Positions 3,122 through 56,476 of a stretch of 64,000 nucleotides of DNA are shown here, in pieces. The translations under genes were made by a program, and so were the position numbers. The stretch comes from Sphingobium cloacae (GTDB taxonomy: Bacteria; Pseudomonadota; Alphaproteobacteria; Sphingomonadales; Sphingomonadaceae): positions 1,426,001-1,490,000 of the forward strand of contig NZ_AP017655.1 in NCBI RefSeq assembly GCF_002355855.1, written 5' to 3'. The notes under the pieces were generated by a model. The model worked only from the letters and a program-made list of their open reading frames with translations, was not told the origin of the DNA and ran no database searches. How positions within the stretch are numbered: the stretch's first letter is position 1; every line of letters starts with the position of its first letter.

Positions 3122-3835
3122 ATGGCTTCCCCGCCCCCCTCCGCGCCGATCATATCGCTGCGCGGCATCACCAAGACGTTCGGCTCCGGCCCGACCGCGT
3201 TTCAGGCGCTCAAGGGCATCGACCTCGACATAAAGGAAGGCGATTTCGTCGCCGTCATGGGCCCGTCCGGCTCCGGCAAGTCGACGACGATGAACATATT
3301 GGGCTGCCTCGACGTGCCGACGGCGGGCGAGTTCCTGTTCAAGGGCCGCCATGTGGAGCAACTGGACCGCGACCAGCGCGCCCTGCTGCGCCGCCGGTAT
3401 CTGGGCTTCGTGTTCCAGGGCTTCAACCTGCTCGCCCGCACCAGCGCGCTGGAGAATGTGGAACTGCCCCTGCTCTACCGGGGCGAGGACAAGAAGATGC
3501 GCTATGACGCGGGCATGGCCGCGCTGGAGAAGGTGGGCCTCAAGGAATGGTGGGATCACACGCCCGCAGAGCTTTCCGGCGGCCAGCAGCAGCGCGTCGC
3601 CATCGCCCGTGCCATCGTGACGCAGCCCGCCGTGCTGCTGGCGGACGAGCCGACCGGCAATCTCGATTCGGAACGGTCGGTGGAGATCATGGAACTGCTG
3701 ACCGACCTCAACCGCAACAGCGGCATCACCGTCATCATGGTCACGCATGAGCCGGACATGGCCGCCTTCGCCCACACCATCGTCCATTTCAAGGACGGGC
3801 TTGTCGAACGGATCGAGGAAGGGGCGAGGGTTTGA
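3122..3835 (+). CDS. MacB-type ABC transporter ATPase
   Basis: Cytoplasmic ATPase of the tripartite pump. Residues 1-237 carry Walker A (GPSGSGKST), a Q-loop (VFQGFNLLART), the ABC signature (LSGGQQQRVAIARA), Walker B (VLLADEPTGNLDS) and the switch histidine (VMVTHEPD), so it should be catalytically competent. It resembles the LolD/MacB-N subfamily. The ATG at 3122 lies 4 bp after the adaptor stop. In E. coli MacB the ATPase and permease are one polypeptide; here they are separate genes divided by an intergenic repeat. Confidence 0.93.
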   Translation: MASPPPSAPIISLRGITKTFGSGPTAFQALKGIDLDIKEGDFVAVMGPSGSGKSTTMNILGCLDVPTAGEFLFKGRHVEQLDRDQRALLRRRYLGFVFQGFNLLARTSALENVELPLLYRGEDKKMRYDAGMAALEKVGLKEWWDHTPAELSGGQQQRVAIARAIVTQPAVLLADEPTGNLDSERSVEIMELLTDLNRNSGITVIMVTHEPDMAAFAHTIVHFKDGLVERIEEGARV

Positions 3836-51041: not shown

Positions 51042-51527
51042 ATGCCGGAGGACAAGCCGAGCGCACCAAAAGTAGATGAAGCGCTAAGCGCTTGGGAACG
51101 CGGCGCAGGCGATACGCCCGATGCGCCGCCCCATCCCAAACTCGCCACTCTCAAATCCCGCTTCGCCGCGCATACCGATGTATGCAGCTTGGAAGACGTA
51201 CTTTCCACCGCGATGAATGATGCGGGTGACGCCGTGCCCGTGACGGTGGCGGTGCAACCGGGATTGCTCGCGCTTCTCGCGCACATCGAGAAACTCGATT
51301 CGGCCCGAGTCGGGCGGAATCCCGCGCCGCCGTCGCGTTTGCTCGCGCAGATCGTCAGCAATCACCTCGAAAATCTACTGCATACCATCGTAACCGACCC
51401 GACAAGCCATCCGCACTATGCGGCACTCTGGAACGCCCTCTGCGCCGCCGAGGGCGCGCCGGAATTGGCCGTGCCGACCGACGACGCGGCGAACGGGACG
51501 CCGCCCGCCGATAGAGGGCCGTTCTGA
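51042..51527 (+). CDS. Hypothetical protein upstream of coupling protein
   Basis: 161 residues, soluble. LATLKSRFAAHTDVCSLEDV and PSRLLAQIVSNHLENLLHTI are helical; ends Pro/Ala-rich. ATG at 51042 (after GGGGG) preferred; ATG at 51021 overlaps the operator palindrome. The stop overlaps the traG start (TGATG). Probably a conjugation accessory protein by position only. Confidence 0.68.
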   Translation: MPEDKPSAPKVDEALSAWERGAGDTPDAPPHPKLATLKSRFAAHTDVCSLEDVLSTAMNDAGDAVPVTVAVQPGLLALLAHIEKLDSARVGRNPAPPSRLLAQIVSNHLENLLHTIVTDPTSHPHYAALWNALCAAEGAPELAVPTDDAANGTPPADRGPF

Positions 51528-53911
51528 TGCTCGCGGCGACGAAGCCCTTGCGGGCCGTCGCCTTATCGCTGGCGCTTGCCGCGTTGCCTTTGGCTGCCGC
51601 CGCGCAAGAATCCGTGCCAAGCTGGCAGAAAGATAACCCGATATTCCGGCAGGGCGGAGAGCCGCGTGGGCTGGTGCTGCCGCCCGCGCAGCAGCGTGTC
51701 TTTGACCGCGACGCGGCTTTGCTGGCCGATATCCGCGTGGAGCTTGCGGAGGGCGAGTATCGACGCAAGGCAGGCGAGATTGACGCGGCGGCATGGCGCA
51801 GCCGCGCCACAGAACTGCAAGCAGCGGAAACCGCCCTGCGCCGGAAATGGCAGGGCATCGGCACAGGCCAAGACTTGATGCTGAGCAGCGCCGCTGACAG
51901 CATCGCCCGCGCGCGCATGGCGGCGCTCAGGGCGCAATACGACCCGCCCAAAGAGCCGACGCCTTGGAACTACGTCACCGAGCTTGCAGGGATTGCCAAG
52001 GATATGGCCGTGGGCCTGTTCCGAGAGGGCATGGACCTTCTCGGCAGGCTGTTCGCCAGACTGTTCGGCCCGCTGGCCGTGCTCGTGGGCGTTGTCGGAC
52101 TGATTTGGCTCGTGAAGGACAAACGGCGCAAACCGAAGCTAAGACCCGCCCTGTCCGACAATTACGGCTCCGCCCGCTATGCGGACGTGCGCAATAGCCT
52201 TGCCGACGCATACGACGGCCACAGGGGCGTGTTTTTTGGCAAGAGCAGCGCGCCGGAGCTTTCAGCCATCCCCGTTGAGCAGCAAACGGGTGCGCCAGTG
52301 CTCTCGACGCCGGAACACCATACATTGATTGTGGCGCGCACCCGCACGGGCAAAGGCACCCGCGTCATCGTGCCGACGCTCTTGCGCTATGGCGGCTCGG
52401 CGATTGTCATCGACCCCAAGGGCGAAAACGCCGCCATCACAGCGCGCATCCGGCGCGGTGCGCTCAATAGCGCCGTCCACGTCATCAACCCGTGGGGCGA
52501 ACTGGCGGAGACGTTCAAGGAGCGCGGCCTTGCGCCCGCGACCTTCAATCCGCTGGACGTGCTGGTGCGCGACGACCCTAACGCCGTCGCGGTGGCGCAG
52601 GCGCTTGCTGCGGCGGTCTGTCCAACGACCCCCGGCGACAAAGACCGCTATTGGCAGGGCAGCGCCGCTAACGTCCTGACCGCCGTGCTCTTGTGGATCA
52701 CCGACCAGCCGGGCGAGCAAAAGACGCTCGCCCGCGCGCGGGAGATTGTGAGCCTGAGCCGCAAGGATTTTACGGACAGGTTTCTGGTGCCGATGGCGGC
52801 CAGCAGCGCCTTCGGCGGGGCGATAAGGGAGATGGTCAGCCCGTATCTGGACCTCGCGCAGGAAACCTATTCGGGCATCATGTCCAACCTGTCGGAGGCC
52901 ACCAAGTTCCTGTCCGACCCACAAGTAAAGGCCGCCACCGCCACATCATCCTTCGACATGGCCGACCTGATACGGGAGGCGGTGACGGTCTATCTGGTCA
53001 TCCCGCCCGACCGTATCGACACCCAGCGCACATGGCTGCGGCTCATGACCACGGCGGCCATGCACACCTTCAAGCGGTATCCGCTGGGCGGGCGTCCGCC
53101 GCACCGCTGCATGATCTTGATGGACGAGTTTCCGGCGCTGGGACGCATCGAGGATTTGCCGCGCGATATCGCCACCATGTCGGGCTACGGCATCGACTTC
53201 ACCCTGATTGTGCAGGGCCTCGACCAGCTCAAAGACCTCTATGGCGCTGCGGCGGGCACCATCCTGTCCAACTGCGCTTACAAATGGTTTTGCAACGTCA
53301 ACGACCTTGAGAGCGCCAATTACCTCTCCGAAACCTTGGGCAAAGTGACCGTGCAGACGGTTGGGCATGGCGAGGGCCAGAACTTCGGCCCCGGTGGCGG
53401 TGGCCAGAGCGAGAACGTCAATTACGGGGAGACCGGTAGGCCGCTGCTCATGCCCGACGAGGTGCTGGCCTTGGGGCGCGACGTGGCGATTGTCCTGAAC
53501 CCTACCGACCGTCCGCACTACGTCCGGCCCGTGGATTACTGGCGGCTCCCCGACGCCTTCGCGTCGCTCGCCGCTGTCTATCCGCATCTCTATTGGGAAC
53601 CGCCCTTAGCCTACGACGACAACCCTTATTTTGTGCGGGGCGGCAAATCGGACGGCGGCCATAATGGCCGCCAGTCCGGCGGCGCGCGCCAGCGCGCCGC
53701 AAAACCCAACGGCAAAATGACGCGCGCGGAAGCGCTCGACCTTCTCGGCCTCTCGGAAGGCGCAACCGCCGCTGAGGTGCGGGCCGCTTGGAAGCGGCTG
53801 ATGCAGAAGGTGCATCCCGACACCGGCGGCTCGGCCCGTTTCGCGCAAATGCTCAACGAGGCCCGCGACGTGCTTAGCACTGGCAGCGTTGAAGAGGATG
53901 GCGCGCGATGA
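51527..53911 (+). CDS. traG: VirD4/TraG-type conjugative coupling protein with C-terminal J domain
   Basis: 794-residue type IV coupling protein that would deliver the relaxase-DNA complex to the secretion channel. N-terminal signal-like helix, coiled region, a membrane helix (about 174-195), Walker A ARTRTGKGT (about 268), Walker B CMILMDEFPALG (about 528), and motifs such as QGLDQLKDLYG. Residues about 730-794 form a DnaJ-like J domain (ALDLLGLSEGATAAEVRAAW ... KVHPDTGGSARF with HPD). The fusion is unusual against textbook VirD4. Confidence 0.92.
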   Translation: MLAATKPLRAVALSLALAALPLAAAAQESVPSWQKDNPIFRQGGEPRGLVLPPAQQRVFDRDAALLADIRVELAEGEYRRKAGEIDAAAWRSRATELQAAETALRRKWQGIGTGQDLMLSSAADSIARARMAALRAQYDPPKEPTPWNYVTELAGIAKDMAVGLFREGMDLLGRLFARLFGPLAVLVGVVGLIWLVKDKRRKPKLRPALSDNYGSARYADVRNSLADAYDGHRGVFFGKSSAPELSAIPVEQQTGAPVLSTPEHHTLIVARTRTGKGTRVIVPTLLRYGGSAIVIDPKGENAAITARIRRGALNSAVHVINPWGELAETFKERGLAPATFNPLDVLVRDDPNAVAVAQALAAAVCPTTPGDKDRYWQGSAANVLTAVLLWITDQPGEQKTLARAREIVSLSRKDFTDRFLVPMAASSAFGGAIREMVSPYLDLAQETYSGIMSNLSEATKFLSDPQVKAATATSSFDMADLIREAVTVYLVIPPDRIDTQRTWLRLMTTAAMHTFKRYPLGGRPPHRCMILMDEFPALGRIEDLPRDIATMSGYGIDFTLIVQGLDQLKDLYGAAAGTILSNCAYKWFCNVNDLESANYLSETLGKVTVQTVGHGEGQNFGPGGGGQSENVNYGETGRPLLMPDEVLALGRDVAIVLNPTDRPHYVRPVDYWRLPDAFASLAAVYPHLYWEPPLAYDDNPYFVRGGKSDGGHNGRQSGGARQRAAKPNGKMTRAEALDLLGLSEGATAAEVRAAWKRLMQKVHPDTGGSARFAQMLNEARDVLSTGSVEEDGAR

Positions 53912-53940
53912 AAGCTTCGCCGCATCGTCCGCCTTCGTGC

Positions 53941-54072
53941 TATCCTGCGGCTCATCACGCGCTGAGCGAGTCGCATACGATTGTATGCAGACGGCGATAC
54001 CCGCCCTTGCCGCAAGCGCTCGCTACCCCACACCCCAGCACGTCCCGTGCTATCCTAAGTTATGGCTTAGGA
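53941..54072 (+). other. Candidate origin of transfer (oriT)
   Basis: Between coupling protein and relaxosome genes. TATCCTGC at 53941-53948 matches the nic core of IncP/VirD2-type (MOBP) origins. It is followed by hairpin GCTCA/TGAGC (53950/53963). A second candidate follows hairpin GCACG-TCC-CGTGC (54038-54050): TATCCTAAG (54051), within hairpin TCCTAAG/CTTAGGA (54053/54066). The exact nick site is not determined. Confidence 0.5.
53973..53988. promoter_or_regulatory. Operator palindrome GCATAC-GATT-GTATGC
   Basis: Perfect 6-bp inverted repeat with 4-nt spacer inside the oriT candidate region, sharing CATAC-N4-GTATG with 51007-51026. It may control the mobC-relaxase transcript. Confidence 0.55.
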
Positions 54073-54140
54073 GAGTGTGCAAGCCATGTGCGGACTGACC
54101 GTCCACACCCCGCGCCTGAAGGCGCTGGCTTGGCAAGGAA

Positions 54141-54445
54141 GGCGCTTCGCCCTCCCGTTGCATCCCTCCAGAGCAAGGGGTTTCATACCCCTGCACCCGT
54201 GCGGGGAGCCTTCGTGCTCCCTGCGACCCATGACCGGGGCTTTGCCCTCGGCACCCACCAAGGCACGTCGTCCTTGGAACCAGACAAGGGGTTATCGCAC
54301 CCCTCGACCACTCGCCGGAGACTTCCGCGTCCCGGCACCCACGGCCAGAGCTTGCGCGCTCTGGACGACACGCAGGCGGCTTTCATGCCCCTGCACCCTG
54401 ACGGAGGGGGATACCCCCTCGACCCCGCAGCCGGACACGTCCGGC
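54141..54445 (+). ncRNA. Noncoding hairpin-array leader B before mobC
   Basis: About eleven short stems: GGCG/CGCC 54141, AGGGG/CCCCT 54176, GGGAGC/GCTCCC 54204, CCGGGGC/GCCC-TCGG 54234, CCAAGG/CCTTGG 54258, AGGGG/CCCCT 54287, GCCGG/CCGGC 54314, CCAGAGC/GCTCTGG 54345, CAGG-GGC/GCC-CCTG 54373, GAGGGGG/CCCCCTC 54404, GCCGGAC/GTCCGGC 54430. From 54176 on the starts are 24-31 nt apart; most linkers contain ACC. It ends 2 nt before the SD region of mobC. With 53912-54140 it makes 549 bp without a gene. Typed ncRNA as structured leader; transcription not shown. Confidence 0.55.
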
Positions 54446-54460
54446 AGAAAGGAGATGCGC

Positions 54461-54982
54461 TTGAGCGATAGCGGCTCAGAGCACAGCCCTTCCGGGCGGC
54501 GCAAGTCGGAACGGCGGCAACGCACCGCCACCATCTATGCCCGCGTCACGCCCGACGAGAAGTCGGCGTTTCTCGCCCGCGCCGACAGGGCGGGTATGGC
54601 CGCCGCCGCCTTCGCCCGTGCGGCGCTCATCGGCGAAGCCGGTCCCCGCGCGCAGCGTCGCATCCCTGCCGACAGTGCTGCGCTGCGTCAAATACTCGGC
54701 CACCTTGGCAAGACCGGCAGCAATCTGAACCAGATTGCCCGCTACCTGCATACAGGCGGCGAGGCGGAAACCGTCTTGCCGGACCTGCGCGAAGCGCTGG
54801 CCGACTTCGCGCGCCTTCGCGCCCTCATCTATGGCGCGCTTGGCAAGGAACCGGATAGCGCCCCAGCGGCGGCACCGCCGCTGGTCTCGACATCTGCACC
54901 GGCTCCAATCCCGGCACCGGCAGCGCCGGAGGCCGCCCCGCCTGCGGGATTGTCCAAGTTCATCCCGCCTCCCAAACCGTGA
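54461..54982 (+). CDS. mobC: MobC-like relaxosome accessory protein
   Basis: 173 residues. N-terminal ribbon-helix-helix-like part (RTATIYARVTPDEKSAFLARA) then the BacMobC signature LRQILGHLGKTGSNLNQIARYLH, and a Pro/Ala-rich tail. It should bind oriT and help the relaxase. Start TTG at 54461, 6 nt after AAAGGAG; ATG at 54455 abuts the SD and is unlikely. Precedes the relaxase by 9 bp. Confidence 0.85.
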   Translation: MSDSGSEHSPSGRRKSERRQRTATIYARVTPDEKSAFLARADRAGMAAAAFARAALIGEAGPRAQRRIPADSAALRQILGHLGKTGSNLNQIARYLHTGGEAETVLPDLREALADFARLRALIYGALGKEPDSAPAAAPPLVSTSAPAPIPAPAAPEAAPPAGLSKFIPPPKP

Positions 54983-54991
54983 GGCGGCGGC

Positions 54992-56476
54992 ATGATTATC
55001 AAAGGAGGCTCACGCGCCGGACCCCGCCAGCTTGCCGCCCACCTTCAGCGCACCGACACCAACGAGCGCATGGAGGTGCTGGAACTACACTCCGGCATCG
55101 ATGACCTGGCCGCGACCTTCCGCGACTGGCAAACCCTCTCGGAGGGCACGCGCGGCAAGAAGGGACTCTATCACGTCAATATCGACCCCGACGCCCGCTA
55201 TGACATGACGCCCCAGCAATGGGCGCGTGCCGTGGAGGTTCTGGAACAAGAACTCGGGCTGGACGGTCAGCCCCGCGCCGTCGTCCTGCACGAAAAGAAA
55301 GGCCGCCAGCACATCCATATCGTCTGGTGCCGCACCGACCTCGAAACCATGACCATGCGCTCGGATAGCAATAACTATCTCGCCCATGAGCGCGCCAGCC
55401 TCAAACTGGAACGCGAGTTCGGCCATGAGCATGTGCCGGGGAAACACGCGAAACGCGACCGCGCCAAGCAGCCGGAGTTCCCGCGCGCGGATGTCAGCCA
55501 TGCGGAGCATCAACAGGCCGAACGCAGCGGCCTTTCCACCCAAGAGCGGCGCGCGCAGCTCGCGGCGCTCAAATCATCCTGTGATAGCGGCATGGCGTTC
55601 AAGGCCGCCGTGGAAGAAACAGGCTATGTGCTGGCGCGGGGCGACAGCAAGGACTTCGTGCTCGTCGGGCCGGAGGGCAGCGTTTACAGCCTGAGCCGCG
55701 AACTCAAAATGAAGGCCGGCGAGGCGCGGGCCTTCATGGCGGATGTGGACCGCGATGCGCTCCCCACCGCCAGCGACGCCAAAGCCCAGCAGCGCGACCG
55801 GCAGAAGGATGCCGAGCCGCCCGCATTCGAGATGCAGCGCCCGCCCGTCGAAGATCTCGCGCCAGAGCCGGAGACGCAGGGCGAGATAACGGACGCGCAG
55901 GAGCAAGATTCCGGCGCACCGGAACTCGCCCCCGCCGTCGCGGCGGCATTGGCCGCGCGCGAACAGGCCGAGGCCGAGAAACTGGCCAAGTGGCATCATG
56001 CCGAATTGCGCCAGCTCCGGCATGTGCTCGTTCTTGAAGCGCGGGAAAAGATAGACGGCCTGCGCCGCCAGCAGCAGGCCGAGCGCGAGCGCTTCATCCG
56101 CGATGGAAAATTGTCCGGTATCGAGGGATATATCGAAGCCCTGCAAAACCGCCTCAATCCGGGGCGCGGTGCGGAGAAACGCCTTGAGCGTGAGACCGCA
56201 TGGAAACACCTGCACAAGCGGCAGGCCATCGAGCGCGCCGATCTTCGCACATTGCTCCGGCAGGACAGGGCCGAACACATCGCGGAACTGAAAGAACGCC
56301 ACGAACAGCAGCGACGCGATCAACAGGCGGGGTTTGCGCGGGAGCGCATCCGCTATGCGGAAGATTCAGCCCGCGCGGCGCGATTGCTCGCGCAGGTCGA
56401 AGAAGACCGCCGCGAGGCAGAGCGGCGACGGCAGGAGGGGCGCGCGGCGGAACCGCCGCCAAGACCCGCAAAGTAA
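54992..56476 (+). CDS. Relaxase / mobilization nuclease (MobA/VirD2-like)
   Basis: 494 residues. It nicks oriT and pilots the strand. MIIKGGSRAGPRQLAAHLQR opening and motif III GRQHIHIVWCR (about 104-113, His-x-His metal ligands) define a MOBP-like relaxase of the alphaproteobacterial element type. The classical N-terminal Tyr motif is not obvious; YHVNIDP (about 60) is near. From about 300 it is a long charged coiled coil (EREQ-rich). The coding pattern continues past the stop in another frame (see 56590). Confidence 0.88.
   Translation: MIIKGGSRAGPRQLAAHLQRTDTNERMEVLELHSGIDDLAATFRDWQTLSEGTRGKKGLYHVNIDPDARYDMTPQQWARAVEVLEQELGLDGQPRAVVLHEKKGRQHIHIVWCRTDLETMTMRSDSNNYLAHERASLKLEREFGHEHVPGKHAKRDRAKQPEFPRADVSHAEHQQAERSGLSTQERRAQLAALKSSCDSGMAFKAAVEETGYVLARGDSKDFVLVGPEGSVYSLSRELKMKAGEARAFMADVDRDALPTASDAKAQQRDRQKDAEPPAFEMQRPPVEDLAPEPETQGEITDAQEQDSGAPELAPAVAAALAAREQAEAEKLAKWHHAELRQLRHVLVLEAREKIDGLRRQQQAERERFIRDGKLSGIEGYIEALQNRLNPGRGAEKRLERETAWKHLHKRQAIERADLRTLLRQDRAEHIAELKERHEQQRRDQQAGFARERIRYAEDSARAARLLAQVEEDRREAERRRQEGRAAEPPPRPAK

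Follow-up and report, generated by a model that had tools for sequence, protein, structure and literature searches.

Gene context of the hairpin array

We analyzed a 64,000-nt stretch of the Sphingobium cloacae genome (contig NZ_AP017655.1, positions 1,426,001 to 1,490,000), referred to below as the window; all coordinates are positions within it. The locus under study lies between a coupling protein gene and the mobC and relaxase genes, and combines a conserved segment, here called the head, with a row of ten short hairpins:

51527..53911, + strand: TraG/VirD4-type coupling protein with a C-terminal DnaJ domain (Pfam PF02534, 1.6e-74; PF00226, 2.5e-07)
54048..54056, + strand: extended -10-like box TGCTATCCT before the head (TGnTAnnnT pattern, conserved in relatives)
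54053..54072, no strand assigned: inverted repeat TCCTAAG..CTTAGGA over the -10 box, possibly operator-like (read in the sequence)
54080..54166, + strand: head, candidate oriT of two hairpins, IR1 and IR2, then ATCCC (conserved, arms covary)
54161..54167, + strand: presumed nick region CATCCCT, following IR2
54173..54194, + strand: array hairpin 1 (this and the following hairpins from local folding)
54200..54225, + strand: array hairpin 2, loop CTTCGT
54231..54253, + strand: array hairpin 3
54258..54277, + strand: array hairpin 4
54287..54304, + strand: array hairpin 5, loop TATCGC
54314..54336, + strand: array hairpin 6
54342..54367, + strand: array hairpin 7
54372..54394, + strand: array hairpin 8, loop TTTCAT, then ACCCTGACG
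54404..54420, + strand: array hairpin 9
54430..54445, + strand: array hairpin 10
54449..54454, + strand: Shine-Dalgarno sequence AAGGAG of mobC (read in the sequence)
54461..54982, + strand: mobC, NikA-like (Pfam NikA-like, 1.1e-13; MobC, 0.00045, below the cut-off)
54992..56476, + strand: MobA/VirD2-type relaxase (Pfam PF03432, 6.2e-18)

TTG was chosen as the start codon of mobC, with ATG at 54455 as an alternative. The C-terminal DnaJ domain of the coupling protein is common to several relatives. Relatives are classified as MOBP in the PLSDB typing. A relaxase alignment of 22 rows was used to scan genomes, which yielded 52 related loci, and further ones were taken from family genomes and plasmids; 54 loci, the window included, possess both the head and an identifiable mobC. 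Counts out of 52 or 54 loci are not independent, since several loci represent the same place from two collections (the near-duplicates L004/L037 and L063/L065, for example, differ little). Removal from the 52 of those sharing at least 60% of 10-mers left 31 non-redundant mobC-linked arrays.

Folding and regularity of the array

Local folding of positions 54141-54445 (pairs at most 45 nt apart) gives ten hairpins with a centre spacing of 28.2 nt (sd 1.5), which bears out the ten evenly spaced stems described in an earlier note made from the sequence alone. The mean spacing sd in 1000 dinucleotide shuffles of this segment is 10.3, and none of them is as regular as the array. The fold energy (-131.6) lies below that of all 1000 shuffles (-98.7 ± 6.4), and the segment has seven perfect stems of at least 5 bp compared to a shuffle mean of 1.93, a number that 0/1000 shuffles reach. 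The bare number of hairpins is mildly high (10 versus 7.7, equalled by 39/1000 shuffles). Folding of the wider segment 54100-54470 against shuffles gives z-scores of -3.53 (RNA) and -3.19 (DNA) on the + strand and -2.61 (RNA) on the - strand, and the 294 nt behind the head reach -6.85 on the + strand and -3.81 on the - strand.

An equal density of perfect stems was found in 18 of the 1274 305-nt tiles of the window, the array's own tiles counted in. Three other stem-dense places were inspected; they contain no comparable hairpin row, look ordinary, and the densest of them is located inside an ORF. A DNA search of the genome with positions 54077-54470 returned a single copy, the array itself.

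The array ends at the mobC ribosome-binding site, as had been noticed before, hairpin 10 closing at 54445 and the Shine-Dalgarno sequence occupying 54449-54454. Its start has to be moved: positions 54141-54165, previously counted into the array, are a part of the conserved head that precedes it. The unit sequences are not wholly unrelated to each other, a correction to the earlier note: GGGTTTCATACCCCTGCACCC and GGCTTTCATGCCCCTGCACCC are 90% alike, and many loops share the pattern YWTCRY across relatives. The linkers between hairpins are 4-9 nt long, and the ACC motif ascribed to them is present within 7/9 linkers, or in 8/9 with the final base of the stem included.

The head as a candidate origin of transfer

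The arms of IR1, CAAGCC and GGCTTG, are located at 54080-54085 and 54127-54132 with one or more inner hairpins between them, and IR2 (54133-54161) consists of GCAAGG, a loop and CCGTTGC, followed by ATCCC. We aligned 38 heads chosen from 70. The sequence GTTGCATCCC at the presumed nick region is invariant in all 38, an outer invariance that is partly by construction, since all of these heads were found with the exact core pattern. The inner arms change pairwise, with 101 double-change cells versus 33.7 in shuffled alignments (0/500), and G-U pairs occupy 4/816 arm cells.

The exact head core was identified in 22 of the 298 family genomes (25 places), and all 22 are among the 29 genomes that have a relaxase match (Fisher p 1.4e-27, genomes treated as independent). 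A reversed control pattern of the core has no match in the 298 genomes. Seven of the 29 relaxase genomes do not have the exact core. Of the 25 head places, ten are linked to mobC, 12 share their contig with a divergent relaxase, and for two such a relaxase lies on another contig; for one place, the second head of genome G007, none is listed. A reading of the family heads away from mobC as relaxase-less hitchhikers was dropped once the divergent relaxases had been found. The class-wide search detected the core in 6/384 other genomes, in which divergent relaxases would be missed because the relaxase search was done at E <= 1e-100 only, so that relaxase-less hitchhikers are conceivable there. The core is also present in seven IMG/VR contigs; a coupling-protein gene was found on L090, and serine-recombinase-type integrases on L093 and L094.

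The head precedes mobC and a relaxase gene on plasmids of Nitrosospira, Methylomagnum and Desulfosarcina, and pTF4.1 and pACMV8 (1729 bp) carry a looser form of it. No gene of pACMV8 is named relaxase, its three genes all being annotated as hypothetical. Despite the looser head and the head, respectively, pACMV8 (L110) and the Methylomagnum plasmid pRS11DPr7 (L114) are typed as non-mobilizable in PLSDB; pRS11DPr7 has an annotated mobC and relaxase. Looser head variants also occur in L064, L079 and L081, and no variant was found in L080. A look at loci L011-L030, whose relaxases are mostly 28-40% identical, did not reveal the head, and the lowest structure z-score there is -4.8.

Origins of transfer of the MOBP class are described as having the nick consensus (C/T)ATCCTG(C/T) with an inverted repeat upstream (PMC3772185). 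In the head, an inverted repeat (IR2) stands directly 5' of the presumed nick sequence ATCCC, and the cognate relaxase co-occurs in 22/22 head genomes, pACMV8 being a counter-example. The core ATCCTG is not found after IR2, where most heads have ATCCC(C/T), and pTF4.1 and pACMV8 have ACCCC. An exact consensus match, TATCCTGC, lies upstream of the head at 53941-53948. Within the segment searched, 6/54 loci, not all of them independent, have such a match; in close relatives, TATGCTGC or TATGCTAC stands at this position. The surrounding segment 53936-53948, which contains TATCCTGC, is a second copy of CGTGCTATCCT and can also be read as an extended -10 box.

Compared with the MOBP origins of RP4, VirD2 and tfs4, as they are presented in PMC3772185, the locus is alike in having an inverted repeat 5' of a conserved short sequence and adjoining mobC and relaxase genes, but differs in ATCCC instead of ATCCTG, in its two hairpins, and in a long row of hairpins lying 3' of it. 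The head behaves like an oriT, and we propose positions 54080-54166 as the candidate oriT of this MOBP relaxase family; the earlier placement of the array behind a candidate oriT was thus right in substance. The head would offer a sequence by which transfer origins of this large relaxase family can be recognised, also on plasmids that PLSDB types as non-mobilizable.

Array units in related loci

The stretch from the head to mobC is strongly structured in the 54 loci, with z-scores per 200 nt as low as -8.5 (L008), and structure is present in all 31 non-redundant mobC-linked loci (z from -2.0 to -10.1); these z-scores, like those above for the 294 nt behind the head and for L011-L030 and those below for heads away from mobC and for the strand comparison, come from 40-50 shuffles each. 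The 31 arrays contain 329 hairpins with a unit spacing of 29.6 ± 5.7 nt, versus 37.5 ± 11.7 nt in shuffles, and G-U pairs make up 4.3% of the pairs, versus 9.3%. Regular, modular and covarying hairpin rows of this kind were found in Alphaproteobacteria and Acidobacteriota.

Three short signatures recur among the mobC-linked units. The hexaloop YWTCRY is present in 75/329 units, compared to 2/2566 in shuffles and 1/260 hairpins of the downstream coding stretch. ACC occurs in the linker after the hairpin in 182/329 units (408/2566 shuffled, 33/260 coding), and A[TC]CC stands immediately 3' of the stem in 88/329 (112/2566 shuffled, 12/260 coding). The linkers resemble the bases that follow IR2, ATCCC in most heads and ACCCC in pTF4.1 and pACMV8. 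The loop and linker signs are weaker in 12 arrays away from mobC, with YWTCRY in 13/132 units (8/2401 shuffled) and ACC linkers in 32/132 (270/2401 shuffled); these arrays were hand-picked after an array scan in a way that favours loci with an array, L094, L104, L105, L108, L110-L116 and L119 being left out.

In an alignment of 14 homologous leaders, 94.7% of the cells pair. Pairs changed on both sides number 21, versus 14.4 ± 1.8 in shuffled alignments (0/500, kinship ignored) and 3-6 when the alignment is slid, so that the compensatory changes exceed both controls. Together with the loops and linkers that the units share far beyond shuffles and the coding control, this supports, from comparative sequence data, the earlier proposal that the array structure is kept by selection. 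Single stem mismatches are mostly A-C (22 versus 3 G-T), many of which seem to come from a single homologous unit, and some one-sided stem changes appear as G-U on the + strand. Both strands of the 31 arrays fold, with mean z-scores of -5.07 (+) and -4.52 (-), the + strand being stronger in 23/31. The folding of both strands and the predominance of A-C mismatches do not favour the + strand, and are neutral between RNA and DNA.

Whole units have been gained and lost among relatives. L034, L036 and L041 have one extra unit each, L041 has another 30-nt hairpin besides, and L056 has a tandem pair; array size ranges from none to about 13 units. At a fixed array position (L058, about 3416-3458; alignment A2, columns 195-240) there is an imperfect hairpin of ~42 nt with very divergent sequence, most of which is missing in L052 and L055. 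A small ORF is located between the array and mobC in some relatives (L032, 2604-2783, about 60 aa; L044; L046).

Two settings of the head

The heads were found in two settings. In the first, the -10-like box, the head, the array and mobC follow each other in this order. The pattern TGnTAnnnT is present at most 62 nt upstream of the head in 52/54 mobC-linked loci (29/31 non-redundant), compared to 0/17 heads away from mobC and 2% of random 62-mers. A full sigma-70 -35/-10 pair was sought in 53900-54480, with 0 promoter-like sites. Inverted repeats similar to TCCTAAG..CTTAGGA, of changing sequence, are present in many relatives (TGTTAT..ATAACA in L058) and might be an operator or a relaxosome site.

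In the second setting, the head lies away from mobC, the box is absent, and the first hairpin is CAAGATG..CATCTTG or similar. In 12 family genomes of this type, a 29-37% identical relaxase is encoded on the same contig at a distance of 6.4-27.9 kb, and always converges on the head. An array (z <= -3 over 200 nt starting 100 nt past the core start) was found in 7/23 loci, the other 16 lying above z = -3, in a mixed set that includes three mobC-linked plasmids, none of them at z <= -3. Within 350 nt behind the core, an array by the same z threshold is present at 5/15 heads away from mobC, the other ten lying above it, versus 9/9 mobC-linked heads. One of the seven loci, L119, looks like one large hairpin, not a row; L124, also away from mobC, has a clear hairpin row with the same linkers. 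In L089, L112 and L118, the segment upstream of a head away from mobC is likewise structured (z <= -3). On the Nitrosospira, Methylomagnum and Desulfosarcina plasmids, the head directly precedes mobC and no array was seen. Arrays are therefore not confined to a place between a promoter and mobC, as they also stand behind box-less heads away from it.

Defence or restriction genes are located on the array side in 9/21 loci inspected (in L090 solely by matches below the Pfam cut-off). The genes beside the head in L103, L109, L145, L147, L148 and L149 encode GajA, type III and C5 methyltransferases, Vsr, MmeI-type enzymes and a QatC-like protein. Defence genes on this side fit a leading region as it is outlined in PMC11541004, but would also fit a cargo hot spot.

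Comparison with known elements

The head appears to belong among the known oriTs or to be a variant of them, and the array seems to be without a counterpart in Rfam or in the open-access literature. Rfam matches above the gathering score in the window and 29 further loci are tRNAs only, leaving the array unmatched, and a description of such a hairpin array was not found in the open-access library searched, a scope outside which most subscription papers lie; the earlier note, too, knew of no described family. A search of the open-access literature for the letters of the head sequence returned no plasmid paper by title.

Several known elements share single properties with the locus. The plasmid pTF4.1 (Acidithiobacillus) and those of Nitrosospira, Methylomagnum and Desulfosarcina have the same head type before mobC and relaxase, but no array or a single hairpin. 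The Frpo/ssi single-strand promoters (PMC11541004) likewise consist of single-stranded DNA that folds close to oriT on the strand being transferred, in the leading region; they are described there as one long fold with promoter boxes, whereas the array has many short units and no boxes in the hairpins. Identity with Frpo/ssi was rejected, with 0 promoter-like sites in 53900-54480 and TATAAT (at most one mismatch) in 1/31 arrays. The sgm-sRNA of SGI1 is also a non-coding element beside oriT, needed for mobilization, but it belongs with tyrosine-recombinase-type mobilization proteins, and the cited part of the source describes no hairpin row (PMC9299015). The oriT of pPDL2/pLB1 from Sphingobium, compared by its description only, is a sphingomonad oriT with secondary structure and four tandem repeats immediately downstream; it differs in involving a RepB protein, mobC being unmentioned in the cited part of that description (PMC3516476).

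Possible roles of the array

The reading we favour, at a little short of even confidence, is that the array is a part of the mobile element's transfer-origin region and serves as folded leading single-stranded DNA, probably bound by protein. The relaxase and MobC would recognise IR2, and the + strand would be cut in or just after CATCCC. According to the rule that the MOBP inverted repeat stands 5' of the nick, the array would be on the leading side; the + strand would leave with its 5' end first, so the ten hairpins would be the first DNA to travel. Each 28-nt unit would fold, in the single strand, into a short hairpin of Watson-Crick pairs, and the ACC-type linker behind it, similar to the sequence following IR2, would stay unpaired. 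Judging by the even spacing, each unit may bind one protein or accommodate a single step of a multimer; the relaxase, MobC, the coupling protein and a single-strand-binding factor are candidates. Where the array stands before mobC, it is probably transcribed as well, forming the mobC leader.

The association of head and relaxase, the arrays that occur with neither box nor mobC, the covariation, the scarcity of G-U pairs and the defence genes on the array side all argue for this single-stranded DNA reading. Against it stand ATCCC in place of ATCCTG, the upstream TATCCTGC, the majority of heads away from mobC, which have no clear array, and the conserved -10 box, with which the mobC-linked arrays are probably transcribed. 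Folded transfer DNA, one of two roles suggested in the earlier note, is accordingly the preferred candidate, arrays behind box-less heads away from mobC being in its favour, and it stays a candidate. The array is a concrete, testable object for asking what the leading few hundred nucleotides of a conjugative strand do.

A special form of the single-stranded DNA reading, which we consider doubtful, sees in each unit, a hairpin with an A(T)CCC-like tail, a tandemly repeated mimic of the oriT nick hairpin. The units would make up a modular landing array on the DNA that leaves the donor first, and would load the relaxase or another transfer protein onto the single strand in 28-nt steps; if true, this would be a packaging or coating signal for conjugation without a described counterpart. 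An origin of the units by duplication of the nick hairpin is thinkable, although the shared motif is short.

The other role suggested at first, that of a structured 5' leader, is possible but rather unlikely as the main function. In this reading, the mobC-relaxase operon would begin with a long folded leader RNA whose hairpins and ACC linkers would bind a protein, or protect the untranslated leader against Rho and RNases, and so tune the expression of the transfer genes. The extended -10 box in 52/54 mobC-linked loci (duplicates included), the end of the array at the mobC ribosome site, the slightly stronger + strand (23/31) and the one-sided changes that are G-U on that strand speak for a leader. 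It also stays a candidate because 31/31 non-redundant mobC-linked loci are structured, compared to a minority of the others. As a sole role it is weakened, since arrays also stand behind a minority of the heads away from mobC, with no box, and no array accompanies head and mobC on the three plasmids of Nitrosospira, Methylomagnum and Desulfosarcina. The low G-U share (4.3%) and the lack of an Rfam match point the same way. Pairing between the nick region of the head and the mobC start does not exceed chance, 0/52 loci (not all independent) being at or below 5 of 100 shuffles, and was rejected. On balance, a DNA role is somewhat ahead of an RNA role.

It is improbable that one stretch has been selected both as transfer DNA and as leader RNA. 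The + strand would be at once the presumed T-strand and the mRNA sense, and two settings of the head exist, but neither function has separate support. Even less probable is a functionless by-product, in which nick-like hairpins pile up by duplication at a recombination-prone single-stranded end. The gain and loss of whole units, the range from none to about 13 of them and the likeness of the unit tail to the bases after IR2 would agree with such an origin, but compensatory changes and even spacing point to selection.

A TIGR-type array of guide-RNA stem-loops is very improbable: tandem stem-loops do exist there, but each TIGR unit is described as having two spacers of 8-12 nt and the system as having a Nop-domain Tas protein (PMC12045711), compared to linkers of 4-9 nt here and no match to the Nop domain (PF01798) in the one genome searched, that of the window. 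Least credible of all is a protein-coding repeat across the array: the window has two open frames there (53908-54471 and 54077-54982), but the first has no Pfam match, and stops in all three frames in 23/54 relatives, some of them duplicates, contradict it.
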